Assembly (NCBI RefSeq): GCF_007997305.1
Contig: NZ_VORZ01000001.1
Span: forward strand, 62,001-126,000
Source of the DNA: Psychrobacter frigidicola
Lineage (GTDB): Bacteria > Pseudomonadota > Gammaproteobacteria > Pseudomonadales > Moraxellaceae
Direction of reading: 5' to 3'
DNA: 64,000 nucleotides
Shown: positions 11,105 to 39,522 of the stretch, in pieces
How positions within the stretch are numbered: position 1 is the first letter of the stretch
Layout of the letters: each line of letters starts with the position of its first letter
Position numbers and translations under genes: made by a program
The notes under the pieces: generated by a model
The model's input: the letters and a program-made list of their open reading frames with translations, nothing else
Databases searched by the model: none
Told to the model about the DNA's origin: nothing

Positions 11105-11854
11105 ATGGTCATCAGTTTGACAAGAATGCTCCAGTCATTTGGGCAAGCACACAATGATTTACCTGCACAAGCTGCTAAAAATGCGCGGCAAACTGCTGCG
11201 CGTGAGCCTATTAATGATGATTCACATTCTAATGTTAAACAAGACCAAAAATCCGTTACAACCCTAACCCAGCCGCAGCGGGTAGAGCGTATTTGTTCGG
11301 CTTTAGCACAAGTCAATGATATCCGCACACCAACGCCGCTGACAGATCGCTATTTATCCAATCGCGCGCAGATGCGCCCGACTAATCGACCCCCCTTCGA
11401 CCCTAATACTTTATGGTTTCTTAAATATGGATACTGTCCGATTATGACTGAACTTGTCGATGTTGTTGATGAGGCCACTTTAAATGCCATGCCAATTGAA
11501 GCAGTGGCTATCCTTGATCGTATTAACGGTAAGCTAAAACGCTACCGCGATTGGAGTGAGGAGCTAAATAAAGAACAACAGCAGCAACATAGTGAACGGC
11601 AGTTCGTCATTGATAAGCTGGTAACTGAAAGTATTCCTGAAGCATTGCATCATTATGAACAGCTGTTGCGATTTAGTCCGCACCGTACAAAGAACAGCAC
11701 TGTTCAGGGTAATATGACTGCAGGAGGCATGTTGACTGATCTATTTTTGGAGATTGATTATGAATTAGATGAATTGTTAGATGAGCTACACCAGACCGTG
11801 CTTAATCGCCTAGCCTCGACCCATCGTTATGTTAAGAGCCGTACCAAAAAATAA
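11105..11854 (+). CDS. Uncharacterised helical protein, first of three tandem paralogs
   Basis: I do not recognise a named function. The 249-residue protein has no signal peptide or membrane helix, a polar N-terminal third and a helical C-terminal two-thirds. Two segments recur in the next two genes: one with the pattern ERQFVIDKLVTESIPEALHHYEQL and one with IDYELDELLDEL followed by RYVKSR. It also shares the LNAMPIEAVAILDRINGKLKRY helix with the third gene. The spacing of LP/IP, Tyr and the following amphipathic helices recalls the XpaC family by eye, which is a weak similarity. A probable terminator separates it from the second gene. It may be the soluble member of a membrane-associated set. 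Confidence 0.65.
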   Translation: MVISLTRMLQSFGQAHNDLPAQAAKNARQTAAREPINDDSHSNVKQDQKSVTTLTQPQRVERICSALAQVNDIRTPTPLTDRYLSNRAQMRPTNRPPFDPNTLWFLKYGYCPIMTELVDVVDEATLNAMPIEAVAILDRINGKLKRYRDWSEELNKEQQQQHSERQFVIDKLVTESIPEALHHYEQLLRFSPHRTKNSTVQGNMTAGGMLTDLFLEIDYELDELLDELHQTVLNRLASTHRYVKSRTKK

Positions 11855-11910
11855 GACAGACTTAATTTTAGCTATCATCGTTCCAAAAAAGCGATATCTT
11901 ACATAACAAT

Positions 11911-11940
11911 ATAGGGCTTTAATTTGCCCTTATTTTTTTG
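11911..11940 (+). terminator. Probable terminator after the first paralog
   Basis: A short GC-rich stem, AGGGC / GCCCT (11913-11917 with 11926-11930), has an eight-base loop and is followed by TATTTTTTT. The stem is short but the T tract is good. Confidence 0.55.
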
Positions 11941-12029
11941 TTTAATATTAGAAGTTAATTTAGTCTTGAATGCTGAAGAGACAATAATAATAAAGAGTTA
12001 CCTAACACCATAAGAATAAGGAAACTATA

Positions 12030-12647
12030 ATGACTCAATTAACGGCTATGTTAGTGATGTTTGTTTTATACGGTGTGTTGCCGGCAGCGGGAATATATTT
12101 AGGTTATCGTGGTATCAAAAAAGTTACGGCGCCAAAAATGCTGGAATATAAAGCTATGCCACAGTTGGGTTATATCCCTGAAAAAAGCTTGCCAGAAGCA
12201 GTCAAAAATTCGTTGGCTCAAATCAATGGAAAAGGCGAGAAACTACGGGTAATTTACGGGGATACCAATAATGATGGTCAAATTGACGATAAGGACGCCG
12301 TCTCCGAAACTTATGTCATGATTCAAAACTTAATGGATAAGCATATTCCACAAGCGGTTGCTGATTATCGGCGTTTATACGATTTGGAAGGTGCACGCGT
12401 TGATACTACTAAAATTAAAAATTCGGATGTCACGGGTAAAGAAGCCTTATTAGAGGTATTAGGGACTATTGATGCTCAATTTGATGACTTATTAGATGCC
12501 TCTTATCATCAAGATGGACAAAAGCTGCTAGTGACCAATCGTTATTTACAGCAGCGTTTTGATACTCCTGCTTTCAATACTCAGACTGGTAAGCTTGCAG
12601 ATGTTGATAATAGTATTAACCTTATTAAGGATAATAGAGAGGAATAA
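12030..12647 (+). CDS. Uncharacterised membrane-anchored protein with EF-hand-like loop, second paralog
   Basis: The 205-residue protein has one N-terminal membrane helix (about residues 5-25) and a soluble helical domain. Residues 78-89 read DTNNDGQIDDKD, with Asp, Asn, Asp, Ile and Asp at the positions of an EF-hand or dockerin calcium loop. Neither paralog has this loop; it sits where they carry a helix-helix linker. The following SETYVMIQNLMDKHIPQAVADYRRLYD and FDDLLDASYHQD...RYLQQRF segments align with the other two genes. It has an AAGGAAA ribosome-binding site. Calcium binding is an inference from the motif. The third paralog starts 38 bp downstream, probably in the same transcript. 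Confidence 0.65.
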   Translation: MTQLTAMLVMFVLYGVLPAAGIYLGYRGIKKVTAPKMLEYKAMPQLGYIPEKSLPEAVKNSLAQINGKGEKLRVIYGDTNNDGQIDDKDAVSETYVMIQNLMDKHIPQAVADYRRLYDLEGARVDTTKIKNSDVTGKEALLEVLGTIDAQFDDLLDASYHQDGQKLLVTNRYLQQRFDTPAFNTQTGKLADVDNSINLIKDNREE

Positions 12648-12685
12648 TGGAGTAAAGTAGGGGAGTAGTCAAAGGATAAACGAAT

Positions 12686-13249
12686 ATGAGTATATTGCTA
12701 GGCGTTGGGGTAGTAACCACAGTTACCGTTATATATTTAGGTAAAAAAGGCTGGCAGGCGCTGCATAGAGCGGTAGGTATTACCCCAGGTGTGTTGATTT
12801 ATAAAAACCCCAATGAACCTTTATCGCTGCTTGATGTGACGTGGCAAAATTTAGCTTTAAATGTTAAGTATTTAAATGGTCTGCCCGATGAACAGTTGCG
12901 CCAATTGCAACGTATTGATAATAAGGTGACTACTTATAAAGGTTATCAACGAAATCTACAAGAACAAAACCTAACGGAGGCTCTGACTGAACAAGAATTT
13001 GTGCTGCATAAATTGCTTCATACGCGTTTACCAGAGATGCTTACCAGTCATCATCATGTACGAAGCACGAGCGCCGGTGATAATAGAAGTCATACGGATA
13101 ATATTAACACCGTTCAAGCCAATGAAATTTTGCAAGAAGTGTTAGACAATATCGAAGAGCGCTTAGATAACGGGTTAGAGAGAATGGAGACACAGCACTT
13201 ACAGGATTTACGAATCATGAAGCGTTACATAGATAGCCATAATGCTTAG
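12686..13249 (+). CDS. Uncharacterised membrane-anchored protein, third paralog
   Basis: The 187-residue protein has a short N-terminal hydrophobic segment (about residues 3-17) and then a mostly helical domain. The LNGLPDEQLRQLQRIDNKVTTYKGY region aligns well with the first paralog, and EQEFVLHKLLHTRLPEML plus LDNIEERLDNGLERM...RYIDS align with both. An Asn/His/Ser-rich linker (about 118-137) separates the two conserved helical blocks. No catalytic motif is visible. A 17-bp-stem terminator shared with rluB follows, so the second and third genes probably form one operon. The function is unknown. Confidence 0.65.
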   Translation: MSILLGVGVVTTVTVIYLGKKGWQALHRAVGITPGVLIYKNPNEPLSLLDVTWQNLALNVKYLNGLPDEQLRQLQRIDNKVTTYKGYQRNLQEQNLTEALTEQEFVLHKLLHTRLPEMLTSHHHVRSTSAGDNRSHTDNINTVQANEILQEVLDNIEERLDNGLERMETQHLQDLRIMKRYIDSHNA

Positions 13250-21029: not shown

Positions 21030-22307
21030 ATGATAGATATCAATAACATTAAGATAGCCGTGATTGGTCTTGGTTATGTGGGACTACCCCTTGCAGTTGA
21101 GTTTGGTAAGACTAACTCAGTAGTTGGCTTCGATGTTAATACTGACCGTATTTCTGATTTAACGTCAGGTATAGATCATACGTTAGAAGTTAGTAATGAA
21201 GAGCTGTCACAGTCATCATATTTGAGCTACAGCTCAGATATCCAAGCGCTTAAAGACTGCAATTTTTTTATTGTAACTGTGCCTACCCCTATCGATGAAT
21301 ATAAGCAGCCAGACTTGACTCCGCTGATAAAGGCCTCAACAGCTATTGGTAGCCTACTGAAAAAAGGTGACATTGTGGTTTATGAGTCTACCGTATACCC
21401 AGGTGCTACGGAAGAGGTCTGTATCCCTGTATTGGAAAAAATATCCGGGCTTGTTTTTAATGAAGATTTTTATGCAGGCTACAGCCCTGAGCGTATTAAT
21501 CCAGGTGATAAAGAACATAGGGTAACTAATATCCTAAAGGTGACTGCAGGGTCTACTCCTGAAGTAGCGGATTTCGTCGATGAAGTCTACAACCTAATTA
21601 TCACCGCAGGAACCCATAAAGCACCGTCTATCAAGGTAGCAGAAGCGGCAAAAGTCATTGAAAACACACAAAGAGATGTCAATATTGCTCTTATCAATGA
21701 GCTAGCAGTCATTTTTAATAAGATGAATATAGATACTGAAGCTGTATTAGAAGCAGCAGGGACGAAATGGAATTTCTTACCCTTTCGTCCAGGCTTAGTA
21801 GGTGGGCACTGTATTGGCGTTGATCCTTATTACTTGACGCACAAAGCACAAGCTATCGGCTATAATCCAGAAATTATCCTTGCTGGTAGACGTCTTAATG
21901 ATGGTATGGGTGCTTATGTAACGACTCAGCTCATCAAGACGATGATAAAAAAGCGTATTCAAGTCGAAGGTGCAAAGGTATTAATACTGGGACTCAGTTT
22001 TAAAGAAAACTGCCCAGATGTTCGTAACACTAAAATCATAGATATCGTACATGAGCTACAAGAATACAATATCGAGGTCGATATTTATGATCCTTGGGTG
22101 GATAAACTTGAAGCTGAGCGTGAATATAATGTCATTCCTATCACTGAGCCCCTACCTAATCATTATGATGGTATTGTTCTAGCCGTTGCGCATCAAGAGT
22201 TTATCAAAATGGGCATAGATAATATTCGCCGTCTTGGTAAAGACGATCATGTTCTCTATGATCTAAAATATATGTTTGCAAAAGATAAAACTGATATCCG
22301 CCTATAG
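21030..22307 (+). CDS. wbpO: UDP-N-acetyl-hexosamine 6-dehydrogenase (WbpO/TviB family)
   Basis: This family oxidises C6 of UDP-GlcNAc or UDP-GalNAc in two NAD-dependent steps to the uronic acid. The 425-residue protein shows the N-terminal Rossmann motif [14 protein letters not shown], the central [22 protein letters not shown] and the catalytic cysteine in [12 protein letters not shown]. The last third is the UDP-binding domain. Sequence style is that of WbpO/TviB rather than Ugd or WbpA. The next gene, a WbpP-type epimerase, suggests UDP-GalNAcA as the final product. An AAAGGAA ribosome-binding site precedes the start. Confidence 0.88.
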
Positions 22308-22352
22308 TTAATTGTTCAGTTTAAATAATAAGCAATAAGGAAAATAGCTACG

Positions 22353-23384
22353 ATGAAAGATATTAATTACGAACAAATTGAACAAGTACTGCTAACTGAT
22401 ACAAAGACTTGGCTTATCACTGGAGTAGCAGGGTTTATCGGCTCAAATTTACTTGAGACTTTATTAAAGCTTAACCAAAAAGTTATTGGTCTAGATAACT
22501 TCGCTACTGGTTATCAGAAGAACTTGGATGAAGTCCAGTCATTAGTCAGCGCAGCCCAGTGGCAAAACTTTAGTTTTATTGAAGGTGATATTAGAAAGTC
22601 AGATGACTGTCATCAGGCGTGTGTAGGTGTTGATTATGTATTGCATCAAGCAGCACTTGGCTCTGTACCACGTTCTATAGCAGATCCTATTGCTACTAAT
22701 GAGACCAATATTTCAGGATTTCTGAATATGCTGACTGCGGCACGTGATGCCAAAGTTTTAAGCTTCACTTATGCAGCTAGTAGCTCGACTTATGGAGATC
22801 ATCCAGCGTTACCGAAAGTTGAAGATGCTATTGGCAAGCCCTTGTCTCCCTATGCAGTAACTAAGTATGTTAATGAGCTTTATGCTGAAGTATTTGCTCG
22901 TACCTATGGATTTGAATCTATTGGTCTTCGCTACTTCAATGTTTTTGGTAGACGCCAAGATCCAGAGGGTGCTTATGCTGCGGTTATTCCAAAATGGACT
23001 GCTGCCATGATTGCAGGAGATGATGTCTATATTAATGGCGATGGAGAAACGAGTCGTGATTTCTGTTATATCGATAACACGGTACAGGCTAATATCTTAG
23101 CAGCGGTTACCCGTAATCCAGAAGCTAAAGACCAAGTTTATAATGTAGCAGTCGGTGATAGAACAACATTAAATGAATTATTCAAAGCTATCAAGACAGC
23201 CTTAGCGGATAATAGTATTGTCTATAACAAGCAACCTGTATACCGTGAATTCCGTGTAGGCGATGTAAAACATTCGCAAGCTGATATAAGCAAAATTAAA
23301 ACTTTACTGGGCTATAATCCTAAATTTGTTATTAAAGACGGCATTGCCAATGCTATGCCTTGGTATGTTAGTTTTTCAGGTTAA
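22353..23384 (+). CDS. wbpP: UDP-N-acetylglucosamine 4-epimerase (WbpP/TviC family)
   Basis: This SDR enzyme interconverts UDP-GlcNAc and UDP-GalNAc, or the corresponding uronic acids. The 343-residue protein has the cofactor motif [12 protein letters not shown], the family signature [15 protein letters not shown], and the catalytic Ser (AASSSTYGD) and YxxxK (YAVTK). The stretch [23 protein letters not shown] is typical of WbpP. It follows the dehydrogenase by 45 bp and both make one precursor. The GC content drops sharply after this gene, marking the edge of the strain-variable part of the locus. Confidence 0.9.
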
Positions 23385-23542
23385 AAACTATTAGAAATAA
23401 AGAAAGTTTTCTAACTAAACGTTAGTATGTTTAAAAGGTTTTATATTCTAGAAAGTATAATTAAAAATACACGTTTAAATGATATTTTTAAAATTACGTC
23501 TATATTATCTTCTCTATTCTATAAAATCTTGGTTGAATAAAT

Positions 23543-24589
23543 ATGAAATCAAACATTTGTTTTTTAATATCTGATTTAGAGAACTCAGGGGGTACACAGC
23601 GGATGTTGTGTTGTCTCTGCAATTTATTAGTGGACCACTTTAATATAATCATAATGGTTCATTCTAAAGGTGATTCTTTTTTTCCTCTTGACTCACGTAT
23701 TAAAATAGATGTTTTGCCTGCTACACCAGGATATCTAAATACAAACTTAGAGATCTATAAAATATTAAAATGTAATAAAATTAAATATTATATTAATTTG
23801 GATTCTAACTCTTTAATATTAAATGGTTTTTTTGTTCCAAGATTTACTAAAATAATTCTTTGGGAACATTTTTCAATTGAAAACAACTTTAAAAAGGTGC
23901 TTTTTACCATCTCCCGGCATTATTCAGTAATACGCTGTAAAGAATTAGTGTTTTTATCTAAATATGAGGTGATGGCATGGAGCAAATATAGTTTTTTTGC
24001 AAAAAATAAATCTGAGCTAATATATAACCCATTATCTATAGATACAAATGATATAGATAAGTCTAATAAAATGCACTTAAAGACATTTCTAGCCATTGGT
24101 AATATTACTAATGTTAAAGGTTTTGATATATTGCTTGATGCTTGGGTAACTTTAAATACTGACTGGAAGTTGCGTATAGTAGGTCTGAATGAAGATCAAA
24201 TGTTAAATCTAAAACATTTAGTAAACACTAGAAATGTTAAAAACATAGAGTTATACGGTAAAGTAAAGAATATACAGGATTTTTACAAAGACGCGTCTGT
24301 GTTTTTATTACCTTCTAGAAAAGAAGCGACTCCATTAGTTCTGATTGAAAGTCAAGCTTATGGATTGCCAGCCATAGTTTTTAACCATTTACCAGGAGTT
24401 TTAGAGCTGGTAGATGATTCAGCTTTAATTGCAGACTTTGATAGAAAAGCTGAATCCTTTTCAAACGAGATGAAATTGATAATAAGTGATAGTCTTTTAT
24501 ATGAGAACCTACATCTAAATGCATTAAAGAATGCTGATAAATTTAGTTTGGAAGCATTTAAAGAAAGATGGTTAGATATTTTAATATAA
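23543..24589 (+). CDS. Glycosyltransferase, GT4 family
   Basis: The 348-residue protein has a GT-B fold. The N-terminus carries the gly-rich SGGTQRMLC loop, and the C-terminal domain the nucleotide-sugar motif LPSRKEATPLVLIESQAYGLP with the E-x7-E pair of GT4 retaining enzymes. It is very AT-rich compared with wza-wbpP, which suggests horizontal acquisition. The ribosome-binding site is weak. The donor and acceptor sugars cannot be told from sequence. It should add one residue of the capsule repeat unit on the cytoplasmic face. Confidence 0.82.
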   Translation: MKSNICFLISDLENSGGTQRMLCCLCNLLVDHFNIIIMVHSKGDSFFPLDSRIKIDVLPATPGYLNTNLEIYKILKCNKIKYYINLDSNSLILNGFFVPRFTKIILWEHFSIENNFKKVLFTISRHYSVIRCKELVFLSKYEVMAWSKYSFFAKNKSELIYNPLSIDTNDIDKSNKMHLKTFLAIGNITNVKGFDILLDAWVTLNTDWKLRIVGLNEDQMLNLKHLVNTRNVKNIELYGKVKNIQDFYKDASVFLLPSRKEATPLVLIESQAYGLPAIVFNHLPGVLELVDDSALIADFDRKAESFSNEMKLIISDSLLYENLHLNALKNADKFSLEAFKERWLDILI

Positions 24590-24823
24590 AACAATACTAT
24601 ATTTTTTGAAAAGTTAAACTAGGCTCGTTCTGAGACTATGCTATTTAACTTTAACAAAATATTAAATATATTAAGGTTCAGTCTTATTTAATTGTCTTTA
24701 TAATTAAAAATATTTCTACTTTTCGAGAGTAGTACGTATTATAACAACTGAAGTGCTACGGGCAAGCATACCACATCTAATTTAGATCTTAGTCAATTAA
24801 TAAATTATGGAATATTAAACTCA

Positions 24824-26602
24824 ATGGCACAATATGTTTTTGTGAAAATTCGCCAATCCGTTGAACCATCAAAAATATTCTCAAAGCTTGAACAGGTCTG
24901 TGATTTATTAACACCTGTAGCAATTAAAGGAAAAAGTAAAAATACAGTAGCGGTATGGCCAAAAGGTTCAAACTCTTTTTATGCTATCCAGAATAGCGAG
25001 AGTACTGCTAAACCCGAGCATGGCGCGTTAGTGATCGGATGGGTTCAGCAGTCAAATTATAACGGCTCAGATTTGTTCAACTCTGAGTCTGATGGTTCTT
25101 ATGCTGTTATTAAAAATACTGAAAATGAGTTGTCATTCTTTTCAGACCAGTTCGGATCACGAACTTTATGGTACTACTGTGACGAGAGTGCTGTTATCGT
25201 TTCTACCTCACAGCGTGCGATTGTTGCTCTAAAAGGCAGTTTTCAATTTAATGAAGAGGCGCTTGCTTGGTATCTATCATCAGGGTGTCAGGGACCGTTT
25301 ATTTCTTGGGATAAAGATGTTAAGCAGGTACTTCCACATTTAGAATACAGACTGGACGTTGCTAATTAGTGTGTAGACTCAAAGCAGAAGCCTGGTATGG
25401 AACTTCCGTTGTCAGGTAGTACTAAAATGAGTGATTATCTTGATTTGTATGAACAACAAGTAACTACTTCGCTGGATCAGATTGTTAACAGTTATCCCAA
25501 AGGACAGGTTTTAATGCCATTGTCTGGAGGACTGGATAGTCGCTTACTGTTGGCGCTCAGTAAAAAAGCCAACCTCGATGATAAGTTGACTCTTGTTAAC
25601 TGGGGAGTAGCGAACCGAGAAGATGTTTTTGATGATAAAGTAGCTGCCCAGCGTGTAGCAGACTTTTATGGTAAAGACTTATTGGATATGTCCTTGCCTG
25701 CTCATATAGACTCTTACAACCAAGTTTTAGATAGTTTCGTGGAAGCAAGTGAAGGTCGTATTGACCACTTTAATGCATTTACAGATGGTTTTAAGATGTG
25801 GGATAAATTTTTTCAGAATGGGTATCGAATGATCGTGAGAGGTGATATTCCATTCCCTGCCGGATTTTGCCTTGATGAGCTTCAAATTAGGATAATGATG
25901 GGTCTAGAACTGTTTAGTGACTATTCAAATATAGATAGTTTTAACGTAAAAAAATATTCTGAGCTACAGAGTGAATTCCTAACTAAGCGTTTAGATGGAG
26001 AGTCGCTAACAAGATGGAGAGATCGAACTTTCACAGGTATTCGTGTACCTATAGTACTTGCAGCATTTTCACATCAAATAAGCGGATTTACAGAAAATAG
26101 AACGCCAATGTTAAATTGGACGTTATTTAAGCTTTATATGGGACTACCTGATAAAGAAAAAGGAGACAAACTACATATCAGAAAACTTTGGAAAAAGTAT
26201 GACCGCAGTGGCACATCTTCCAAAGCAGCTGGCTCGTTGCGCTCAATGGACTCATATTTTAATAACAAGCAGGGCCAAAAGTATTTACTTAAACAGCTTA
26301 AATCTTTGGAAGAAAGTAAGTATATTTCTTCAGATTTAGTTACATCTATTCAAAGGCTTCTCTCTGAGCAAAAGTCCTTATCATCAAATCAATAACATGT
26401 GACAGTTTCTAGAAAAACAGTAGTTTCCAAAAAAATTCAAGCGTTACTATCAAACTATCTACCAACTTCAATTAAGGCTTATATTAAATCTAAACAAGTA
26501 AAAATATTATCTTCGACAACCATAGCTTATCGTATTACTCTTGCAGAAAAAATTATAACTATGTATAAGACTGATTCAAATAAAATTAAGGTGGACTACT
26601 GA
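24824..26602 (+). pseudogene. Asparagine-synthase-like gene with two in-frame stops
   Basis: One reading phase runs from 24824 to 26602 and is broken only by a TAG at 25367-25369 and a TAA at 26393-26395. Joined, it encodes about 590 residues, the usual size of capsule-cluster asparagine synthase homologs. The first part (to 25369) resembles the amidotransferase domain (FFSDQFGSRTLWYY) but starts MAQY, so the Cys2 nucleophile of glutaminases is absent. The middle part has the ATP pyrophosphatase loop PLSGGLDSR. The last 67 codons (IAYRITLAEKIITMY) look like the family C-terminus. A WbpS-like role, amidating a uronic acid such as GalNAcA, fits the neighbours but is an inference. The following GT4 gene overlaps the final stop by one base. 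Confidence 0.8.
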
Positions 26603-27696
26603 TGTTTCCTAAACGCGTTCTTCATATTATAAGTAAAATGGATCGTGCGGGAGCCGAAACTATGCTGATGAATTTATATCGGCATACTGACCGCAATAAG
26701 ATCCAATTTGATTTTATAACTTTTACAGATGAAACGGGTGATTACGATGCTGAGATTATAGCATTAGGTGGAAAAGTTATTCCAATTATAGCCAGTAATC
26801 CAATTACACGAATGCTGAAACTAAAAAAATTCTTACAACGACATCCTGAGTATACAATCGTACATGCTCATATGTCATTAAGTAATGCTTTCCATTTACT
26901 CGCTGCTAAAAACGCTGGAGTTAAGCACCTTATTTCACATGCACATAGCACTAAGAATGGTAAAAGAGGTATAGTAGAAAAAATATATGAGAAGTGGGCC
27001 TTAATAACTAACCGTCACATAGCAACATATAAAATAGCATGTGGTGAATTAGCTGCACAGTATTTATTTGGTACTACAAGAAATGTTTTATTATTACCGA
27101 ACGCTGTTGATATACAAGAAATGGTAACAGTCGCTGAAAATTCTCGTGATTATATAAATCGCGAATTTAGTGACAATGGTCTAAAAATCATTCAAGTGGG
27201 TCGTTTATATAAAGTCAAAAACCATACTTTTTCTCTAAAGATTGCTGAAGAACTTAAGAAGCGTCAAGTAAACTTTACAATATATATTATTGGTCAAGGC
27301 CCGCTTGAAAAAGATCTAAAGCAACAAGCCCAAGATACCTCGTTACTAGATAATGTTAAGTTTTTAGGGCTACGCACGGACATTACCGAATTAATGGCCA
27401 GTGCAGACTATATGATAATGCCGTCTTTATCTGAAGGTTTTCCCGTAGTATTAGTAGAAAGTCAAACCGTTAGGTTAATGACGATAGTTTCGAAAGAGGT
27501 ACCAGCTGAAGTAGATTTAGGGATTGGTTTAGTTGATTTTTTGCCCATTGACTCCGCTGTCGAATGGGCCGATCATTTATTAGAAAATAAACAATCTAAT
27601 ATATCTAACGAAGAAATAATAAATGTATTGAAGTCAGGCGGTTTTGATGTGGCTTTAAGTGCAGAAAAACTAGCTAAAATGTACATGAGCTTATAA
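26602..27696 (+). CDS. Glycosyltransferase, GT4 family
   Basis: The 364-residue GT-B enzyme begins with HIISKMDRAGAETMLMNLYR, a common N-terminus in capsule GT4 proteins. The donor-binding motif is PSLSEGFPVVLVESQ, with the second Glu seven residues after the first. The start overlaps the previous stop (TGATG), and AAGGTGG provides a strong ribosome-binding site, so translation is coupled to the asparagine-synthase-like frame or its last fragment. That coupling could matter if upstream translation stops early. The sugar specificity is unknown. Confidence 0.85.
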   Translation: MFPKRVLHIISKMDRAGAETMLMNLYRHTDRNKIQFDFITFTDETGDYDAEIIALGGKVIPIIASNPITRMLKLKKFLQRHPEYTIVHAHMSLSNAFHLLAAKNAGVKHLISHAHSTKNGKRGIVEKIYEKWALITNRHIATYKIACGELAAQYLFGTTRNVLLLPNAVDIQEMVTVAENSRDYINREFSDNGLKIIQVGRLYKVKNHTFSLKIAEELKKRQVNFTIYIIGQGPLEKDLKQQAQDTSLLDNVKFLGLRTDITELMASADYMIMPSLSEGFPVVLVESQTVRLMTIVSKEVPAEVDLGIGLVDFLPIDSAVEWADHLLENKQSNISNEEIINVLKSGGFDVALSAEKLAKMYMSL

Positions 27697-27738
27697 TTAA
27701 GCACCAGTATGTTTTAAGAAACTTCTATAGAGGAATAA

Positions 27739-28779
27739 ATGCTTCCATATTTATTAGTTCTCAGTTTTGTAATGTTTTGGATTACTCTAGAACAGAAAGT
27801 CCTTAATCGCAAATCTTTTTGGTTACCTCTCATAGTTTTGGCATTGTTTGCGGGTATTCGAAGTTATTATGTTGGTACTGATTCACCAGGCTATGTGAGA
27901 AGTTTTATTAATCCACTGGATATTGGGGAATTTAAATTTAGAGATGATGTAGAGGTTGGTTACCAACTGTTACAGTATAGTATATTGAGCTTAACACGTA
28001 ACTATTTCTGGCTGTTTTTTATTACTGGTTTGATAGTTGTTTATTGCTATTTAAAAATGATTAAAAAATATAGTGTAAATTACCTATTGTCTGTTTTCTT
28101 GTTTATAACTCTTGGTACTTATATATTCTTTTTTAATGGACTGCGGCAAGGCTTAGCTATGGCTATTTTTGTATTAGCCACTCCTTATTTGCTAGAAAAG
28201 AGAATTATTCCTTATGTATTGATATCCTTACTTGCTTCTCTTTTCCATGTTAGTGCCCTGTTTATGATTCCATTCTATTTATTATCTACTATAAAGATAA
28301 AAATGATTTATAAGGTTCTAATATCTTTTTTCGGTTCTCTGGTTTCAAGTAGCTTTTTAGTTTCTTATTTTGCAGAAAGTAATCAAAGGTATGAGGTTTA
28401 TACGGAAGTATCAGAAAAACCTGGAGGTTTATTGGTACTAAGCTTTTTTGCTATAATAATGATTTTTATATACTTTATTAGCAATGTTTATAGAATTAAA
28501 GAAGAGAATTTTGATAGGCTTTTTACATTTTATGCTGTTGGTGTGGCTTTTATTATACCAGTTGCTATGCTAGGTACAAATCCATCAGGTCCGCAAAGAC
28601 TTCTTACTTATTTTATATGGCCGTTAATTCTAGTATTACCTATAGTGTTTAAAAAAATCAATAATACTTTGTTTTCTAGCCTTTTCGTAGGGCTCATTTT
28701 AACTTACTTCATTCTAACAGTATCTAGATTTAGTGATTTAACTCCATATATTATTAACCCTATTTTTGAGATTTTCTAA
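27739..28779 (+). CDS. wzy: Capsule repeat-unit polymerase, EpsG/Wzy family
   Basis: An integral membrane protein of 346 residues with roughly nine to ten helices. It shows the EpsG-family marks: an N-terminal basic-aromatic loop with YYVGTDSPGY, then the FFNGLRQGLAMAIF segment and FHVSALFMIPFYLL. Members polymerise lipid-linked repeat units at the periplasmic face. It is the only polymerase candidate in the locus and pairs with the flippase at 40.3 kb. GAGG provides a ribosome-binding site. The next gene overlaps its stop (TAATG), so they are translated together. Confidence 0.82.
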   Translation: MLPYLLVLSFVMFWITLEQKVLNRKSFWLPLIVLALFAGIRSYYVGTDSPGYVRSFINPLDIGEFKFRDDVEVGYQLLQYSILSLTRNYFWLFFITGLIVVYCYLKMIKKYSVNYLLSVFLFITLGTYIFFFNGLRQGLAMAIFVLATPYLLEKRIIPYVLISLLASLFHVSALFMIPFYLLSTIKIKMIYKVLISFFGSLVSSSFLVSYFAESNQRYEVYTEVSEKPGGLLVLSFFAIIMIFIYFISNVYRIKEENFDRLFTFYAVGVAFIIPVAMLGTNPSGPQRLLTYFIWPLILVLPIVFKKINNTLFSSLFVGLILTYFILTVSRFSDLTPYIINPIFEIF

Positions 28780-29669
28780 TGAATAAGCAAATTTATATCT
28801 CTATTGGTATATCCTTTTTTAATGATGAAAAGTATTTAGAAGATGCAATATGTTCGGTGTTGGCTCAAACCCATCCCTATTGGGAACTTATTTTAATAGA
28901 TGACGGATCGACTGATCGCTCATTAGAAATAGCAAAGTCATATGAAGAAAAAGATAGTCGCATTAGGGTTTTATCTGATGGAGAAAATAAACGTTTAGCA
29001 GCTCGCTTAAATCAAGTTATTTTGGCATCTAAATATGATTATATCGCCCGTATGGATGCAGATGATTTAATGAGTAATGATCGACTTGAAAAGCAGTTAA
29101 ATATTTTGGAAAAAAATAGTGCAATAGACCTTGTCACTACCGGATGTTTAACAATAGGTGAAGATAATGAGCTAACTGGAGTGAGGTTAGGCAAAAATTA
29201 TCAAATGGACGCAGAAATGATTCTGAATGGACTTACTAATTTGTTACACGCTTCTTTATTAGCACGTAAAAGTTGGTGTGTTAGGAATAAATACAATGAA
29301 AATAGGGTAATAGCACAGGATTTTGAACTCTGGTTGAAGTCTGCAAAGAATAATGATTTAAATTATATAGTGATTGAAGAGCCTTTATATTGGTATAGAG
29401 TAGCTGAAAATGTAACAATCACAAAATTAATTAAAGGCTATAACACTCAAATTGAAGTTATAAACAATAGCTATAAAGATGTTATAACAAAAAGCAAGAA
29501 AAACAAAATCATAAATAAATTTCAGTTGAAAAAATTAATAGTAAAATCTTTAAATAAGTTTGGATTGTTAAAGTTATTACTTCTTCTTAGGTCTGATAAG
29601 TATAGTCAAGAGGACTTAGACTATTACAAAAAAAATATTATAGAAATAAAGAAAATGAGAGTTTTATAA
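28779..29669 (+). CDS. Glycosyltransferase, GT2 family
   Basis: The 296-residue protein has a GT-A fold of family 2. The nucleotide-binding IDDGSTDRS motif lies near residue 38 and the metal-binding RMDADD near residue 92. A likely catalytic-base acidic patch is AQDFELWL. The C-terminal 80 residues are lysine-rich and could rest on the membrane. It overlaps the polymerase gene by one base and the following GT4 starts directly after it, so these genes form one tight operon. Substrates are unknown. Confidence 0.85.
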   Translation: MNKQIYISIGISFFNDEKYLEDAICSVLAQTHPYWELILIDDGSTDRSLEIAKSYEEKDSRIRVLSDGENKRLAARLNQVILASKYDYIARMDADDLMSNDRLEKQLNILEKNSAIDLVTTGCLTIGEDNELTGVRLGKNYQMDAEMILNGLTNLLHASLLARKSWCVRNKYNENRVIAQDFELWLKSAKNNDLNYIVIEEPLYWYRVAENVTITKLIKGYNTQIEVINNSYKDVITKSKKNKIINKFQLKKLIVKSLNKFGLLKLLLLLRSDKYSQEDLDYYKKNIIEIKKMRVL

Positions 29670-29670
29670 T

Positions 29671-30798
29671 ATGAAGATTATTCTGATAGGTACCGTAGCT
29701 AGTAGCTTTTTAGGTTTTAGATCTGATTTAATCAAGGAGATTATAGCTCGTGGACATCATGTGTATGCATTTACATCTGAATATAGTATAAATGAATTGA
29801 AAGAGATAGAAGGTTTAGGAGCAATACCAGTCACCTATAAGCTAAGTCGAGGTGGATTAAACCCTATAGCAGATATAAAGGCAACTCATTCGTTAACTAA
29901 AAAAATTAAAATGATAGCTCCAGACTTGGTATTTTCATATTTCTCTAAGCCGATAATTTTTGGTACTTTAGCCGCCAAGTTAGCAAAAGTTCCTAAAGTT
30001 ATAGGAATGTTAGAAGGACTAGGATATACATTTACTGAGCAACCTGAAGGATTGAGTAAGCGAACCCAAATCATAAAACGATTCCAAGTGCTTCTTTATA
30101 AAATAGCATTACCTCAATTAGATGAGCTTATCTTCTTGAATCCTGATGATCCGAACGATTTATTGACTGTTAATAATATAAATGTTAAAGGGTTAAGTGT
30201 ATTAGGTGGTATAGGACTAAATCTCAAAGAATATTGTTATTCAGATCAATATCCCATAAATATAACTTTTATTTTTATCGCTCGCTTATTAGCTGAAAAA
30301 GGCATACATGATTATATAGCCGCTGCTAGAATAGTGAAGGATAAGTATCCAGATACTAAGTTTATTGTGTTAGGTACAATAGATAAAGAAGCTTTAGGTG
30401 CCTTAACAGAGAAAGAACTAGAGCGATTAGTAGAAGAGAATATTGTTGAATATCCTGGTCATGTTAACAATGTGTCAGAATGGATAGCAAAATCTAGTGT
30501 GTTTGTCTTGCCTTCTTACTATCGCGAAGGAGTACCACGTAGTACTCAAGAAGCAATGGCGATTGGGCGTCCTATTATTACTACTGATGTTCCGGGCTGT
30601 CGCGAAACGGTCATCGACGGCTTAAACGGTTTTTTAGTTGAAAAATGGAACCCACAAGCTTTGTCTGAAAAAATGATTTATTTTATTGATCATCCTGATC
30701 AGATTGAAAGAATGGGTTATGAAAGCTATAAAATAGCACAAGAAAAATTTGATGCTGATAAAGTCAATCAGCGCTTATTAAAGCTGATGGGTTTATAG
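29671..30798 (+). CDS. Glycosyltransferase, GT4 family (PglA/WbpT-like)
   Basis: The 375-residue GT-B protein opens with a secretory-looking but cytosolic Rossmann strand (MKIILIGTVASSFLGFR). It has the GLGYTF element of enzymes that act on undecaprenyl-diphosphate-linked sugars, such as PglA. The donor site is LPSYYREGVPRSTQEAMAIGRPII, with the GT4 E-x7-E pair. Because it lies directly before a PglC-type initiating transferase, it is the best candidate to add the second sugar of the repeat unit. This is inferred from context. Confidence 0.85.
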   Translation: MKIILIGTVASSFLGFRSDLIKEIIARGHHVYAFTSEYSINELKEIEGLGAIPVTYKLSRGGLNPIADIKATHSLTKKIKMIAPDLVFSYFSKPIIFGTLAAKLAKVPKVIGMLEGLGYTFTEQPEGLSKRTQIIKRFQVLLYKIALPQLDELIFLNPDDPNDLLTVNNINVKGLSVLGGIGLNLKEYCYSDQYPINITFIFIARLLAEKGIHDYIAAARIVKDKYPDTKFIVLGTIDKEALGALTEKELERLVEENIVEYPGHVNNVSEWIAKSSVFVLPSYYREGVPRSTQEAMAIGRPIITTDVPGCRETVIDGLNGFLVEKWNPQALSEKMIYFIDHPDQIERMGYESYKIAQEKFDADKVNQRLLKLMGL

Positions 30799-30806
30799 GA
30801 GCTAAA

Positions 30807-31403
30807 ATGTTAAAGAGACTATTTGATATTACTGTTGCAACAACAGCATTAGTTGTTTTATCTCCGGTATATGGTTTTTTGGTTTATAAGGTTAATAAAA
30901 ACCTTGGGTCACCGGTGCTGTTTCGGCAGACACGTCCTGGCAAGCATGGTGTGCCATTTGAGATGATTAAGTTTCGTTCTATGATAGATTCTAAAGATAC
31001 CGATGGTAATTCTTTGCCAGATAGTGGCCGCCTCACAACATTTGGTCAGAAGCTACGCAGTAGTAGTCTTGATGAGCTACCAGAGCTTTGGAATGTAGTA
31101 AAAGGTGATATGAGCCTAGTAGGACCTCGTCCACTGCTTATGGAATACATTCCGTTATATAATCAAGAACAGAATCGTCGCCATTTGCTACGTCCTGGTA
31201 TCACTGGGTATGCTCAAGTCAATGGGCGAAATGCTATCAGTTGGGAAGAGAAGTTTAAGCTTGATATATGGTATGTCGAAAATCAATCATTATGGTTAGA
31301 TATCAAGATTTTATTTAAAACAGTTGGTAAAGTCTTTAAGGCAGAGGATATAAAGGCTTCTAATCACGTTACTGTCGAAAATTTTAGAGGTAATAATGTC
31401 TGA
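30807..31403 (+). CDS. Initiating phosphoglycosyl transferase (PglC-type, monotopic)
   Basis: This enzyme transfers a sugar-1-phosphate from UDP-sugar to undecaprenyl phosphate, starting the repeat unit on the inner membrane. The 198-residue protein is of the short PglC class: one N-terminal re-entrant hydrophobic helix (about 12-32), then a basic RQTRPGKHG and the catalytic FEMIKFRSM region. The conserved SLDELPELWNVVKGDMSLVGPRPL follows, with its Asp-Glu pair. PglC-like enzymes often use UDP-diacetamido-trideoxy sugars, which fits the dehydratase, aminotransferase and formyltransferase genes here. The next gene overlaps it by 8 bp. Confidence 0.92.
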   Translation: MLKRLFDITVATTALVVLSPVYGFLVYKVNKNLGSPVLFRQTRPGKHGVPFEMIKFRSMIDSKDTDGNSLPDSGRLTTFGQKLRSSSLDELPELWNVVKGDMSLVGPRPLLMEYIPLYNQEQNRRHLLRPGITGYAQVNGRNAISWEEKFKLDIWYVENQSLWLDIKILFKTVGKVFKAEDIKASNHVTVENFRGNNV

Positions 31404-31728
31404 CTATACAGCCCTTACTAATAATATAGAGCGATCTGAAGCAGCGTACCACATATATTCTGAACATCCGAATTACCATCACGCCCTACATATCTTTCAC
31501 GCTAATGAAAAAGTGTATACTTGCTTAAATCACTTATTAGAACTAGAAGTTATGACTAAAGAGATATCAACAAAGGTATTTGACTATTTATTTCATCTTG
31601 AAGACTGGTTTTTACAGTTTTCTGCTTTAGAGAAAGAAGTAGAAAACATAGAAGACCGATTCTCTTTTGATTCTTTAAAAAATAGCATACCTTACCCTTC
31701 TAATTTTTTAGAGAGTATAAAAGAATGA
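31396..31728 (+). CDS. Uncharacterised 110-residue capsule-locus protein
   Basis: I do not recognise this protein. It is 110 residues, acidic and predicted to be all-helical, with many aromatic and histidine residues in the first half (YHIYSEHPNYHHALHIFH). There is no signal peptide or membrane helix. It overlaps the sugar transferase gene by 8 bp and the formyltransferase gene by 4 bp (ATGA), so it is translationally coupled on both sides. That arrangement makes it likely to be a real gene and perhaps a partner of one of those enzymes. Confidence 0.6.
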   Translation: MSDYTALTNNIERSEAAYHIYSEHPNYHHALHIFHANEKVYTCLNHLLELEVMTKEISTKVFDYLFHLEDWFLQFSALEKEVENIEDRFSFDSLKNSIPYPSNFLESIKE

Positions 31729-32477
31729 AATACGGTTTTGCGGGCGATAGACAGCTATCAGTAGAGATATTGAGCTTTTTAATTAATGAAGGGTATAAGC
31801 CAAGCTTCTTAATTGTTGGTGATTCTAAAAGTTCAAGTCATAAGCAAGAACTTATTAAGATAAGCGGTTTAGAAGAAAAAAGTATTTATAATATGAGCTT
31901 TATGAATGATCCAAAAAATGCAGATGTATTAAATGACTACGAGGTGGATTATATCTTTGGGATTCATTTCCCTTATATTATTTATGAAAATGTGCTTTCT
32001 ATACCGAAGATTGGCTTTCTTAACTTACACCCAGCTTATCTACCTTATAATAAAGGTTGGCATACGCCAAGTTGGGCCATTATTGATAAGAAAAAATATG
32101 GAGCAACTCTACATTTTATGAGTGAAGAGCTCGATGGGGGTGATATAGTAGCTCAGGCAGAAATAGAAGTAGAACCATGTTTCACTGCAAATGAGCTATA
32201 TAAAAACGTTCTAGAATTAGAAAAAAAGGTTTTTATTGATGCACTACCAGAATTAGTATCATTAAACCCAAAAAGAATACAACAAAGTGGCAAGGGTACC
32301 AGCTACAACAAAAAAGCTTTGTCTAGAATTCAACAAATTGATATGGATAATAAAATATTACCTTTGGAACTTATTGACAAGCTTAGAGCCCTTACGACAA
32401 ATGATGTTAACGAAGCTGCTTATTTCATTGTAGATGGAAAAAAATATAGTATACAAGTGAATATAATAGCTAATTAA
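31725..32477 (+). CDS. Sugar N-formyltransferase (formyl-THF-dependent)
   Basis: The 250-residue protein has the formyltransferase fold of Fmt and ArnA. The catalytic triad is visible: Asn and His in FLNLHPAYLPYNKG and Asp in LDGGDIV. Related enzymes use 10-formyl-tetrahydrofolate to formylate the 4-amino group of dideoxyamino sugars. The gene directly before an aminotransferase and downstream of a 4,6-dehydratase suggests a UDP-2-acetamido-4-formamido-2,4,6-trideoxyhexose as product. The N-terminal YGFAGDRQLSVEIL differs from Fmt, consistent with a sugar enzyme. The substrate is inferred. Confidence 0.82.
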   Translation: MKYGFAGDRQLSVEILSFLINEGYKPSFLIVGDSKSSSHKQELIKISGLEEKSIYNMSFMNDPKNADVLNDYEVDYIFGIHFPYIIYENVLSIPKIGFLNLHPAYLPYNKGWHTPSWAIIDKKKYGATLHFMSEELDGGDIVAQAEIEVEPCFTANELYKNVLELEKKVFIDALPELVSLNPKRIQQSGKGTSYNKKALSRIQQIDMDNKILPLELIDKLRALTTNDVNEAAYFIVDGKKYSIQVNIIAN

Positions 32478-35417: not shown

Positions 35418-37352
35418 ATGAAGTTTAGAAAAGATATTAACGGCCTTCGGGCAATCGCAGTCATTGCTGTTGTGCTATTCCATTTTAATGCGTCTTGGAT
35501 GCCTGGTGGCTTTGCTGGCGTTGATGTATTTTTTGTGATTTCAGGTTTTTTGATGACTGGAATTATCTTTAGAGGTATCGAGCAAGAGAATTTTTCTATT
35601 TTGAAGTTCTATGTCGCTCGTGCTAATAGGATTATTCCTGCTTTGGCATTGCTTTGCTTGGTATTGATAGTCTTTGGTTGGTTCTATCTCACACCACTAG
35701 AATATAAAGCATTAGGTAAGCATGCTGCCAGTAGTGTTAGTTTCTTATCTAATTTTGCTTATTGGAGAGAAGCTGGATACTTTGATGCAGCTTCTCATGA
35801 AAAGTGGCTCTTACATACTTGGTCACTATCGGTGGAGTGGCAGTTTTATATCGTCTACCCGTTATTACTGGTTGGTATGCGTAAGTTCTTGTCTATTAAA
35901 ACCATGAAGATAATGCTGTTGGTAGGAACGGTTTTAGGCTTTATTTTTTGTGTTGTTTCTACCTACAAGTGGCCTAATGCTTCTTATTTCCTACTGTCTG
36001 CTAGGGCATGGGAGATGATGATTGGCGGGGTTGCTTATCTTTATCCTTTTACATTGCAAGAGAATAGAAAGAAGTTGGTAGAGTGGACAGCAATTGCTTT
36101 AATCGTTGGCTCTTACTTCTTGATATCGGCAGAAGACCCTTGGCCAGGTTATTTAGCACTATTCCCTGTTCTAGGCTCGTTTCTTATTATTCAAGCTCAG
36201 CGTAATGACAGTATCATTACAAGTAATATTGTATTCCAAAAAATAGGGGCTTGGTCTTATTCTATCTACCTATGGCACTGGCCTCTCGTGGTCATTATTT
36301 ACATATTCCCATTACCTAAATATTATATTTATCCGGGGATGGCACTCTCCATACTTCTTGGTTTCCTAAGCTATAAATATGTGGAGAAAATTAGGTTTAG
36401 GAATGATTTTTCTAGTTTATTTAGCTATTTTCGAAGTAAACCGATATATATTGCGGGAATTGTAGGACTATTAGGAAGCATGTTGTTTGTAAGTTCTCAA
36501 GCCTTTACTTCTTATCGCTTATCGGCAGACCAGATCTTGATAATAGAGCAGAAGCTGAGAGATCCTAGAGAACCAGTTTGTGGAAAAGTGGAAAACGGCG
36601 TCTCTCCAAAATGTCTTTACGGTGATGGTCCAGTAAAAGCCATTGTTATTGGTGATAGTCACGCTAATGCTCAGATGGTTGCTATTGGAGAAAGTGCTAA
36701 GTTACATCATGGTAGTATTTTAAGTTTTGGCCTAGATAATTGTGTGACAATCAAAGGTATGAAACAAATTGTTAATAATAGAGGAAATGTGGATTTAAAC
36801 TGTGGACAGTTAGTATCGAATGCTATTGATATATCAGCAAGTAAATACCCTAATATACCTGTGATTATTATCAATAGAACTAGTTCAACACTACTTGGAT
36901 TCAATGAAGTTGATGATGATAGACAACCTCCAACATTCGTTGATAAGGTTTTCAAAAAAAGAAGTAATGAGTATGTAAACAATATAACTAACCATATGAT
37001 TAATACGGTTTGTGATTTTTCCCAGAATAATCCTGTTTACTTAGTAAGGCCAACGCCTGAGGTTAAACGGCATGTGCCAAACACTATGTTTAGAAGTTTA
37101 ATTTTTGGTAAGGATACACATATCAAGATAACACGCGATGAATACAACCAGCGTCATACCGCCGCATTTAAAATGCAAGATGATGCTGCAGCGCGCTGTG
37201 GAGCAAAAATATTAGACCCTACACCAATTCTATGCGATGACGGCTACTGTTATGGTGATGTTGATGGAGTTCCACTTTATTTTGATGATGATCATTTAAG
37301 TAGTTATGGTTCAGAACTAATTTCACCTATTTATGATGAAGTCTTTAGATAG
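35418..37352 (+). CDS. OafA/YrhL-type O-acyltransferase with C-terminal SGNH domain
   Basis: The 644-residue protein has an acyltransferase-3 membrane domain (residues 1 to about 370, about ten helices) with the signatures RAIAVIAVVLFHF and GFAGVDVFFVISGF. A periplasmic SGNH hydrolase-like domain follows, with the serine in GDSHANAQ and the Asp-His pair in DDDHLSSYG. Such fusions O-acetylate surface polysaccharides using acetyl groups delivered across the membrane. It should decorate the capsule or the lipopolysaccharide. It follows the wzi terminator and so must have its own promoter. Confidence 0.92.
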   Translation: MKFRKDINGLRAIAVIAVVLFHFNASWMPGGFAGVDVFFVISGFLMTGIIFRGIEQENFSILKFYVARANRIIPALALLCLVLIVFGWFYLTPLEYKALGKHAASSVSFLSNFAYWREAGYFDAASHEKWLLHTWSLSVEWQFYIVYPLLLVGMRKFLSIKTMKIMLLVGTVLGFIFCVVSTYKWPNASYFLLSARAWEMMIGGVAYLYPFTLQENRKKLVEWTAIALIVGSYFLISAEDPWPGYLALFPVLGSFLIIQAQRNDSIITSNIVFQKIGAWSYSIYLWHWPLVVIIYIFPLPKYYIYPGMALSILLGFLSYKYVEKIRFRNDFSSLFSYFRSKPIYIAGIVGLLGSMLFVSSQAFTSYRLSADQILIIEQKLRDPREPVCGKVENGVSPKCLYGDGPVKAIVIGDSHANAQMVAIGESAKLHHGSILSFGLDNCVTIKGMKQIVNNRGNVDLNCGQLVSNAIDISASKYPNIPVIIINRTSSTLLGFNEVDDDRQPPTFVDKVFKKRSNEYVNNITNHMINTVCDFSQNNPVYLVRPTPEVKRHVPNTMFRSLIFGKDTHIKITRDEYNQRHTAAFKMQDDAAARCGAKILDPTPILCDDGYCYGDVDGVPLYFDDDHLSSYGSELISPIYDEVFR

Positions 37353-37570
37353 GGCTAAAATGCTGTTATGGGATATGTATTCTATACCAAACGAAAAATT
37401 ATCATAACTGAGTTGGGATGAGATATTAAGTAAATTGAATCCATGAAAAGTGACCTTGGGAAAGCTTTAATTTTATTGATAGTAATAGGCTTAGCCTCGA
37501 AAATTGCAAAGCTGTGTGCTAACATTTAGAATTCTTACAGCATTGAGTAGCGTCCGATGTAGTACGACTC

Positions 37571-37622
37571 TCAATTCTTACCACTACCCATCCAACATTA
37601 ATGGTTTTTAAAATATGAAAGG
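37571..37622. repeat. Diverged intergenic repeat, copy A
   Basis: This block shares TCAAT, CTTACCACT, AATGG, AATAT and AAAGG in the same order with 39471-39522, roughly 70% identity over 52 bp by eye with one gap near the end. It is probably the remains of one mobile element or of a duplicated intergenic segment. Confidence 0.5.
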
Positions 37623-37666
37623 CTGCGTGCGAGGCCTAACGCGTTTAGCTCTACCAATGCGGTCTA

Positions 37667-38218
37667 TAGTGTTATAGTCAATCCAAAATAAAAGAAACAT
37701 AACCCATATTATGAGATAGTTTAGGCATATCATTCTCCATCCAACCTTGACGCAGAGATTTAGCTTGTGCCCATTTCTTGTCGGTAGGGTTTAGATTAGA
37801 GTAGGACTATAGGGTGCTAGAAATAACAGAGGATGACTATGCCTATATCTTTTTTTTGCTAATATTCAATCTTTTCAAAGCATAGCCCATGCCTGATTTG
37901 CTACAGTTTAGACGCTGTGCTCACTCATACAGATAATCGTCTGGATATTGTTCCACGTCTTTAAATATTTTCATTAGATATACTGGTTGGCACTTTGTAT
38001 CTGGTGGTTTGGATGCTAGAGTCTATGAGCCAGCGCTGTAGTATGCTTCTGCTAATACTATAGAACACACAAGCTTACTGAATACTTATATCTTGCTGTT
38101 TGAAGTTTTTTAATAGCTTGATTACGAAAGTCTCCTGAATAGGTCATCGTTTTTATTTCGCTTTACTTGCTTTGAAAGTATGATACTATTTCTATTTTGG
38201 ACTTATTGTATGACGCTA
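37667..38218 (-). mobile_element. Decayed IS630-family insertion sequence
   Basis: On the minus strand, fragments of an IS630 transposase are readable: the start MTYSGDFRNQAI at 38147, then DVEQYPDDYLYE and CSKSGMGYALKRLNISKKK, and near the end YSNLNPTDKKWAQAKSLRQ, which matches the YSPDLNPIEKKWAQAK motif holding the last catalytic acid. Several stops interrupt it, and the region with the first two catalytic aspartates appears deleted. The terminal inverted repeats are still visible: TAGTGTTATA...ATCCAAAATA from 37667, and on the other strand TAGCGTCATA...GTCCAAAATA from 38218. It is inactive. Confidence 0.75.
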
Positions 38219-38497
38219 CAGTTATTGGGTTTGTAACTTTATTAAATATCTGCTAATAAAAAGTATAATATTTATATCAATTTCGAGCTTCAGTTATGAC
38301 TTATGCAAGAGGCTTAACGTAAAAATCCAGTCAGTAACTGAATTAACCTGTTTTAAGCAAGTTATTTTGTTTTTAGCATAGTTTGATTTTTATATAAAGA
38401 GTATTGTAAGCCAATTTATAAGTTGTTAATTATTAAAACACTGTGATTAAAAGTGTTGTGTATTTCAAATGTGGTTTCTAAAATTAAAGGTTGTTCA

Positions 38498-39442
38498 ATG
38501 ACTTATTTTATCAAGCGTAAGTTTAGAGATATTTCCCATACTAATATATTTTTTGGTCGACTCTATTCCTTACTTAATAACGTTAAAGCTAATTATTCAA
38601 GTGTTATTAGTGATGATCTATATGCAAAGATGAAGTATTATGATGCTACAAAACTTAAGTTAAATTTAAAAAATCCAATTACATTCAATGAGAAGTTATG
38701 GTGGTTAAAGATAAATTATAGAACACCTTTAATGACAAAGTGTAGTGATAAAGTTGAAGTACATAAATATTTAGATGAAATTGGTTTAGGTTGTTTATCT
38801 AATCCAATCAGAGGTGTTTATGATACTGCCGAAGATGTGCCATTTAGTGAAATGAATGGTAAGTTTTTTATAAAATGTAATCACGTTTCAGGTGTTAATG
38901 CATTTTTTGATTCAAAAAATGAAAGTAGTTTTAATAGAAAGCGCTTCAATAAAGAATTTAATAAAGCTTTAAAGGTAAATTATTACCATCAAACTAGAGA
39001 GTGGAATTATAAAAATATTGTACCTAAGATATTAGTAGAAGACTTTATTGAGAGTCAATCGACGCTACTAGATTATAGGTTTTTTTGTTTTCACGGTAAG
39101 GTTAAGTTGATATTTGTTGATACAGATACGGCATCAGAAGATGGTAAACATAATCCAAATTCTAAAAGAAACATATATGATGAACAATTTAATCTACAAG
39201 ATTTCACAGTTGGTAGAGAGAACTTCGATGAAAGCTTAGTTGAAAAGCCTGATAATTTACAACTGATGATTGAATATGCTGAAAAAATAGCTAATCCATT
39301 TATTTTTTGCCGAGTAGATTTATATAATAATGAAGGTAAAATAAGTTTTGGTGAAATTACCTTTTACCCAAGTGGAGGTACACAGCAATTTAGCAATGAA
39401 GAAGCTGACCTCTTAGTATCAAGTTGGTTAGATATTAAATAA
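38498..39442 (+). CDS. ATP-grasp polysaccharide biosynthesis protein (TupA-like)
   Basis: The protein belongs to the TupA-like ATP-grasp family found in capsule and teichuronopeptide clusters, where it may form an amide bond or act in glycan modification. Typical stretches are NPITFNEKLWWLKINYRTPLMT, CSDKVEVHKYL, FFIKCNHVSG, LVEDFIESQ and the metal-binding DLYNNEGKISFGEITFYPSGG. I prefer the ATG at 38498, with AAGG eight bases upstream (314 residues); a GTG at 38453 would add 15. It is strongly AT-rich and flanked on both sides by relic-filled DNA. The exact substrate is unknown. Confidence 0.75.
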   Translation: MTYFIKRKFRDISHTNIFFGRLYSLLNNVKANYSSVISDDLYAKMKYYDATKLKLNLKNPITFNEKLWWLKINYRTPLMTKCSDKVEVHKYLDEIGLGCLSNPIRGVYDTAEDVPFSEMNGKFFIKCNHVSGVNAFFDSKNESSFNRKRFNKEFNKALKVNYYHQTREWNYKNIVPKILVEDFIESQSTLLDYRFFCFHGKVKLIFVDTDTASEDGKHNPNSKRNIYDEQFNLQDFTVGRENFDESLVEKPDNLQLMIEYAEKIANPFIFCRVDLYNNEGKISFGEITFYPSGGTQQFSNEEADLLVSSWLDIK

Positions 39443-39470
39443 AAAATAGTTCATATTATCATTGATATAG

Positions 39471-39522
39471 TCAATCCTTACCACTGTAAACCTAATATCA
39501 ATGGCGTATTAGAATATAAAGG
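39471..39522. repeat. Diverged intergenic repeat, copy B
   Basis: Partner of copy A at 37571-37622. The bases just before it (ATAGTCAATCC) also match 11 bp inside the left terminal repeat of the IS630 relic, which hints at shared mobile-element ancestry. Confidence 0.5.

Follow-up and report, generated by a model that had tools for sequence, protein, structure and literature searches.

What might three adjacent genes between lysE and rluB do for Psychrobacter frigidicola? The genes, which we call A, B and C, lie within the 64,000-nucleotide stretch of DNA that was analysed as a whole (the window; part of contig C1 of genome G000), and an initial annotation, made from the sequence alone, had described them as three diverged, tandem paralogues. 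Open reading frames are indeed present where it placed them (Table 1), all on one strand, with gaps of 175 bp between A and B and 38 bp between B and C; lysE flanks them on the opposite strand and rluB is convergent. The names of the neighbouring genes (nadC, a MarC-type gene, lysE, rluB and wza–wzb–wzc) are mostly ones that we presume to apply. The hairpin between A and B may separate the transcription of A from that of B and C. Terminator-like sites in the region number five, against a mean of 1.7 in shuffles, and promoter-like sites are no commoner than in shuffles. Downstream of the wza-type genes, the GC content is low (0.30–0.37 at positions 22001–32000 and 36001–44000 of the window), as expected of a variable polysaccharide locus.

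Table 1 Features of the A–B–C locus, in coordinates of the window
Feature	Position	Strand	Description
Gene A	11105..11854	+	249 aa, without membrane helix; variable N-terminal part, then conserved helical domain
Helical domain of A (about aa 126–249)	11480..11851	+	Homologous to B, C and TelA-adjacent proteins
Terminator-like hairpin and T run between A and B	11913..11930	+	
Gene B	12030..12647	+	205 aa, N-terminal membrane helix and helical domain, cytoplasmic as judged by charge
Predicted N-terminal membrane helix of B (aa 3–27), then positive stretch YRGIKK	12036..12110	+	
Three-helix bundle of B (aa 56–77, 93–125, 136–178)	12195..12563	+	Predicted structure
EF-hand/dockerin-like loop of B (aa 78–89, DTNNDGQIDDKD)	12261..12296	+	Pattern match
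Gene C	12686..13249	+	187 aa, N-terminal membrane helix, then same domain as A and B

A, B and C are homologous to each other and under purifying selection. Single pairwise BLASTP comparisons gave E-values of 2e-9 (A–B), 1e-8 (A–C) and 3e-5 (B–C), and profile comparison of the orthologue alignments with hhalign gave 97% for A–C, 90% for A–B and 63% for B–C. dN/dS was 0.05–0.21 in nine of 12 pairs, the other three not being computable, and C is the fastest-evolving and least conserved of the three. The division into one soluble protein and two proteins with N-terminal anchors, also claimed in the initial annotation, was borne out by hydropathy (best 19-residue means: A, 0.99; B, 2.1; C, 2.0). 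Under the positive-inside rule, the basic residues that follow the N-terminal helix of B and C mean that the domain of each should face the cytoplasm.

The genes are retained across the genus. Co-occurrence in relatives, a check that had been proposed along with the annotation, was observed in a 199-genome search of the family, where 65 of the 66 genomes of the genus yielded one or more A/B/C homologues among the matches listed; G416 gave none among those matches, although telA is present there. B itself was found in all 36 genomes of the host genus that were searched with it and in none of 21 genomes from other families of the order (both among the matches listed), and a plasmid search with B as the query gave no match. 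The 30 loci kept from the B search have the order A–B–C and contain A in 28 cases, B in 30 and C in 30; one of the two loci without A is a short one at a contig end, and the loci of G034 and G471 lack A. Homologues also occur in six genomes of a second, sister genus (g268) among the matches listed, where they sit at several other loci with other neighbours, one of them adjoining an rluB-type gene (neighbours judged by eye).

Known families and structures offered little guidance to function. Scans of A, B and C against Pfam, NCBIfam, PADLOC and PHROGs gave nothing convincing, and a JetB/MukE-like match of B (E 4e-4), present in five of the 28 members of alignment A2, is likely due to chance. 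The predicted structure of B has pLDDT values of 70–88 in 12 of 13 ten-residue blocks over residues 51–180 (66.5 for the whole model). Foldseek found no match to this model at E 0.001, and VIA-align returned only generic bundles and BAR-like matches; a model of XpaC likewise retrieves unrelated bundles, so the result excludes nothing. In a PDB sequence search, the best E-value was 0.25, and XpaC itself reaches just 0.22.

Between its first and second helices, where pLDDT is 47, B has a loop carrying a pattern (D-x-[DNS]-x-[DNS]-G-x-[ILV]-x3-[DE]) that we take to be that of EF-hand and dockerin calcium loops. All of 30 B proteins and all of six further diverged ones carry it, but none of 28 A or 30 C proteins does, and about 0.1% of shuffled B sequences match it. 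B therefore fits the calcium pattern, but with a single conserved loop rather than paired loops and with a family profile below threshold (Pfam Dockerin_1, 9.7 bits against a cut-off of 22.9). On this pattern match, the loop could bind calcium. One B-like protein of g268 that was checked (L125:5418-6065) does not have the loop, which may therefore have been gained in the host genus.

Relatives of A, B and C are found beside telA in other proteobacteria. A small protein of G397, from the same family as the host, is encoded 1.8 kb from telA and weakly resembles A/B/C (27%). Following it up pointed to G192, which is related to Methylococcus capsulatus (its protein is 95% identical to one in a named record) and encodes, 2.3 kb from telA, a PspC-domain protein in which the shared helical domain occurs twice. 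We combined the G397 and G192 seeds with named Methylococcus relatives, the g268 proteins and B in a profile, A3. Because seven of its 12 rows come from the two TelA-adjacent seed lineages, the A3 survey alone is not independent of them. Among the matches listed, A3 matched 21 of 398 genomes of the phylum, two of the host genus and 19 others, and telA lies within 1.6 kb in all 19 outside the genus. Seventeen of these belong to a single family of another class (f226, which we take to be alphaproteobacterial), and the other two are gammaproteobacteria with a VWA-type gene in between. In f226 the two genes form an apparent operon: the gap between partner and telA is −80 to 55 bp in 16 of 17 genomes, so that they abut or slightly overlap, and the seventeenth reads as a long overlap, probably because the start of the open reading frame was called too early. 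A further partner–telA pair, 1.7 kb apart, was found in G393 (16 genomes searched, nine with matches).

The TelA-adjacent proteins (for example, L148:1141-1854, L136:5008-6141 and L123:7907-8632) have in common with A, B and C a domain in which a helix containing LP and a tyrosine is followed by a loop and then by a long L-rich helix ending near R-F/Y-L. They are likewise small, mostly with N-terminal membrane segments, and their genomes encode TelA of the same clade. The arrangements differ: elsewhere a single gene stands beside telA, whereas the host genus has three genes away from it, and the trio is set apart by an A without a membrane helix and by the EF-hand-like loop of B. In Methylococcus the shared domain, present twice, is fused to PspC (PF04024), a domain that A, B and C do not have. 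No Pfam or NCBIfam family covers the shared domain in the proteins scanned (A/B/C, TelA-adjacent and g268); PspM (NF047839) matched two TelA-adjacent proteins at E 0.05–0.09, mostly N-terminal to the domain. Around these loci, telA has an MscS-type gene no more than about 3 kb away in each of three lineages (L071:7761-9530, L123:1407-2345 and L136:2666-5017). A VWA-type gene, one of which was scanned, stands between telA and the partner in three genomes (L168, L169 and L188), and L169 and L188 have another substrate-binding-type gene on the far side of telA.

The relationship is also recovered from the host side. An HMM built only from the A, B and C proteins of the genus was run against 705 open reading frames (541 in the loci shown) with the host-genus and g268 loci hidden; this search is free of TelA-adjacent seeds, yet its open reading frames come from loci fetched by seed-based searches. 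Its top ranks were proteins encoded beside telA in Methylococcus, in other gammaproteobacteria and in the family of another class. At E-values up to 0.2 it returned just TelA-adjacent proteins, and the first row outside the family had an E-value of 0.33. A profile built from A alone recovered only some of them (best E 2.5e-5), as did one built from B alone (best E 7e-4). Aligned by hhalign, the A/B/C plus g268 profile and the TelA-adjacent family gave 97.7% with a score of 80.8, and single profiles gave 96% (A), 94% (B) and 82% (C); identity between A/B/C and the TelA-linked proteins in the profile alignments is 12–22%. Could such matches arise from coiled-coil composition, with A, B and C being a generic helical bundle? 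The generic bundles and BAR domains among the PDB matches, as well as the weak JetB/MukE-like match of B, are what this explanation would lead one to expect, but we regard it as very improbable, because column-shuffled and reversed profiles scored no more than 17.6 (the maximum of 40 column shuffles; 14.5 when reversed) against 80.8, and because the matches among the 705 open reading frames fall on one gene beside telA and not on other helical open reading frames. TelA itself surfaced there only with the A+C and B profiles, and at E-values no better than 0.11.

Does the host encode a TelA with which such proteins could work? The initial annotation had raised as a doubt that no telA gene is nearby. 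This is correct within the window, but the doubt itself falls away: G000 has one telA, on another contig (C4:3775-4725, between infC- and rnr-type genes), and it is of the same clade as the partner-linked TelA. Among the matches listed in the family search, 65 of the 66 genomes of the genus have exactly one TelA (PF05816), and telA and an A/B/C homologue occur together in 64 of the 66 and in the same six g268 genomes. G474, a 300-contig assembly, has A/B/C homologues and no telA match among those listed. In a 47-row TelA tree, the host genus, g268, G397, Methylococcus and the sampled adjacency genomes occupy one side of a 100/100 branch, with 20 TelA linked to XpaC genes and six other TelA of the same family on the other side; G393, G881 and L129 form long branches in this tree, and deep joins may be false. 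The tree sampled six of 18 host-genus loci, six of 17 f226 genomes and four of six g268 genomes. All 20 XpaC-linked rows, drawn from 24 loci, match PF05816. The host genus thus has the kind of TelA that adjoins relatives of A/B/C elsewhere, yet keeps the two apart. In other genera of the family, a gene that is presumably of TerD type stands beside a different TelA clade (L122:3673-4242 and L130:3931-4509).

The likeness to XpaC proposed in the initial annotation survives in one respect, in that relatives of A, B and C adjoin telA elsewhere, and fails in another, in that neither PF10112 nor direct profile comparison recovers it. XpaC proteins (PF10112, Halogen_Hydrol) are partners of TelA/YaaN and have two or more N-terminal membrane segments; they have membrane segments, as B and C do, and the helix lengths predicted for the C-terminal bundle are close to those of B (22/33/43 residues in B and 23/32/47 in XpaC), although such an arrangement, compared here by length, is common. 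PF10112 proteins occur in 22 of 321 genomes of the class, and the neighbouring gene encodes TelA in 20 of 20 loci scanned, of 24, but this is a TelA of the other clade. The XpaC alignment omits L094, a longer XpaC fusion, and alignment A4 covers 20 of the 24 XpaC loci. By contrast, A, B and C do not stand beside telA and gave no match to PF10112 up to E 10. The TelA-adjacent and g268 proteins scanned gave none either, and of 29 genomes searched (19 from the host genus, ten from other families) none had a protein above the PF10112 cut-off, so no other recognised TelA partner was detected in them. The proposed profile–profile check gave only 2.5% and 1.9% when A/B/C were aligned directly with gammaproteobacterial XpaC, and 10.7% for the merged family. 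Higher values were reached solely by way of TelA-adjacent intermediates: 49% for the TelA-adjacent family (score 32.2, shuffle maximum 19.1) and 84% for A3, with C-terminal domain aligned to C-terminal domain. Comparison through these intermediates is only suggestive. Together with the helix lengths, it is nevertheless what one would see if A, B and C were true XpaC proteins that have diverged beyond the reach of the Pfam model. We find this improbable in view of the missing PF10112 matches, the low direct values, the separate clades of the TelA partners of the two families, and the hydrophobic segments, of which XpaC has two or more by eye, B and C one each and A none. As far as sequence comparison goes, A, B and C appear to be XpaC-like in role and perhaps in ancestry, without being members of PF10112.

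Because their relatives stand beside telA elsewhere, A, B and C are probably moved and triplicated partners of the host's own TelA. We consider it probable, on the adjacency and the near-complete co-occurrence with one TelA clade, that they constitute a diverged and multiplied partner family of that clade, relocated to the lysE–rluB locus away from telA. Several observations speak against a partnership with TelA: telA is on another contig, G416 and G474 are mismatched, the G034 and G471 loci lack A, C is least conserved, as if less constrained, and single-protein profiles of A or B miss some of the TelA-adjacent proteins. Some of these would be explained if the proteins shared ancestry with TelA partners but had been re-used at the membrane independently of TelA, for example in envelope or capsule assembly. 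The separate contig of telA, the strong divergence from the TelA-linked proteins and the G474 homologues without a telA match fit this alternative, as do the presumed wza-type genes, which begin at 15170 (wza–wzb–wzc lie 2 kb from A–B–C). We nonetheless judge it unlikely, because TelA co-occurs almost throughout the genus and in the same g268 genomes, and because the g268 homologues sit at other loci with other neighbours; for a role in capsule assembly in particular, rluB, which is convergent, lies between C and the capsule genes.

If A, B and C are indeed partners of TelA, B and C would each be anchored in the inner membrane through a single helix, their bundles facing the cytoplasm; A would be the soluble subunit; and the three, possibly as a hetero-oligomer, would together form a scaffold that docks cytoplasmic TelA beneath the membrane. 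Such a scaffold would be needed in envelope stress or on exposure to toxic anions, and the EF-hand-like loop of B could make one subunit responsive to calcium. A likely role, by analogy with XpaC–TelA pairs, is that of a cytoplasmic, membrane-tethered helical scaffold acting with TelA in tolerance of envelope stress or toxic anions. The PspC fusion of Methylococcus also points to envelope stress.

In Firmicutes, XpaC–TelA pairs are tied to envelope stress, according to three reports. For Lactococcus, one of them counts an XpaC-like gene and telA1 among the putative members of the CesSR envelope-stress regulon, and deleting the two together caused a partial growth defect under membrane-protein overproduction (PMC3139573). 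Bacillus subtilis xpaC–yaaN is listed as core sigma-W (PMC3498285). In Listeria, a bacteriocin induces the xpaC–telA pair, and increased sensitivity of a telA mutant to nisin and tellurite is cited (PMC12791056). One proposal is that TelA builds structures beneath the membrane (PMC7824862), and the protective mechanism of the Listeria protein is stated to be not known (PMC12791056). With the PspC fusion, these stress reports make a membrane-tethered TelA scaffold the best reading. Neither TelA nor XpaC appears in the main text of a survey of the PSP system (PMC11237479), and a paper on tellurite in Psychrobacter (PMC5822837) does not mention telA. Within titles and the opening lines of abstracts, with subscription papers mostly outside the search, no such TelA-partner family is described.

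More tentatively, and with considerable doubt, we propose that the proteins represent a Pfam-unlisted family of TelA partners in Proteobacteria, tied to PspC and the Psp response, which in this genus may have become a three-subunit, calcium-modulated TelA scaffold of one soluble and two membrane paralogues. If true, this would be a second TelA-partner family, whose own TelA clade and PspC fusion would provide a handle on TelA function. The partners being separable from telA in the host genus, the subunits and the possible calcium loop would be testable by simple deletions.

A fourth paralogue, D, was detected in 28 of 80 genomes of the genus at E 1e-6; the matches are mostly shorter and about 35–40% identical to the query. 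In G000 it is a remnant with three in-frame stops (G000:C1:1546615-1546941; L165, L171). D is intact and longer in G005, G022, G034, G474 and G477, none of which gave an A-like match in the 16-genome search. It adjoins a gene that we take to be efp in G005 (L164/L170) and in G034 (L190), and telA is near efp in g268 (L173–L176), which suggests that telA and its partner once shared a locus.
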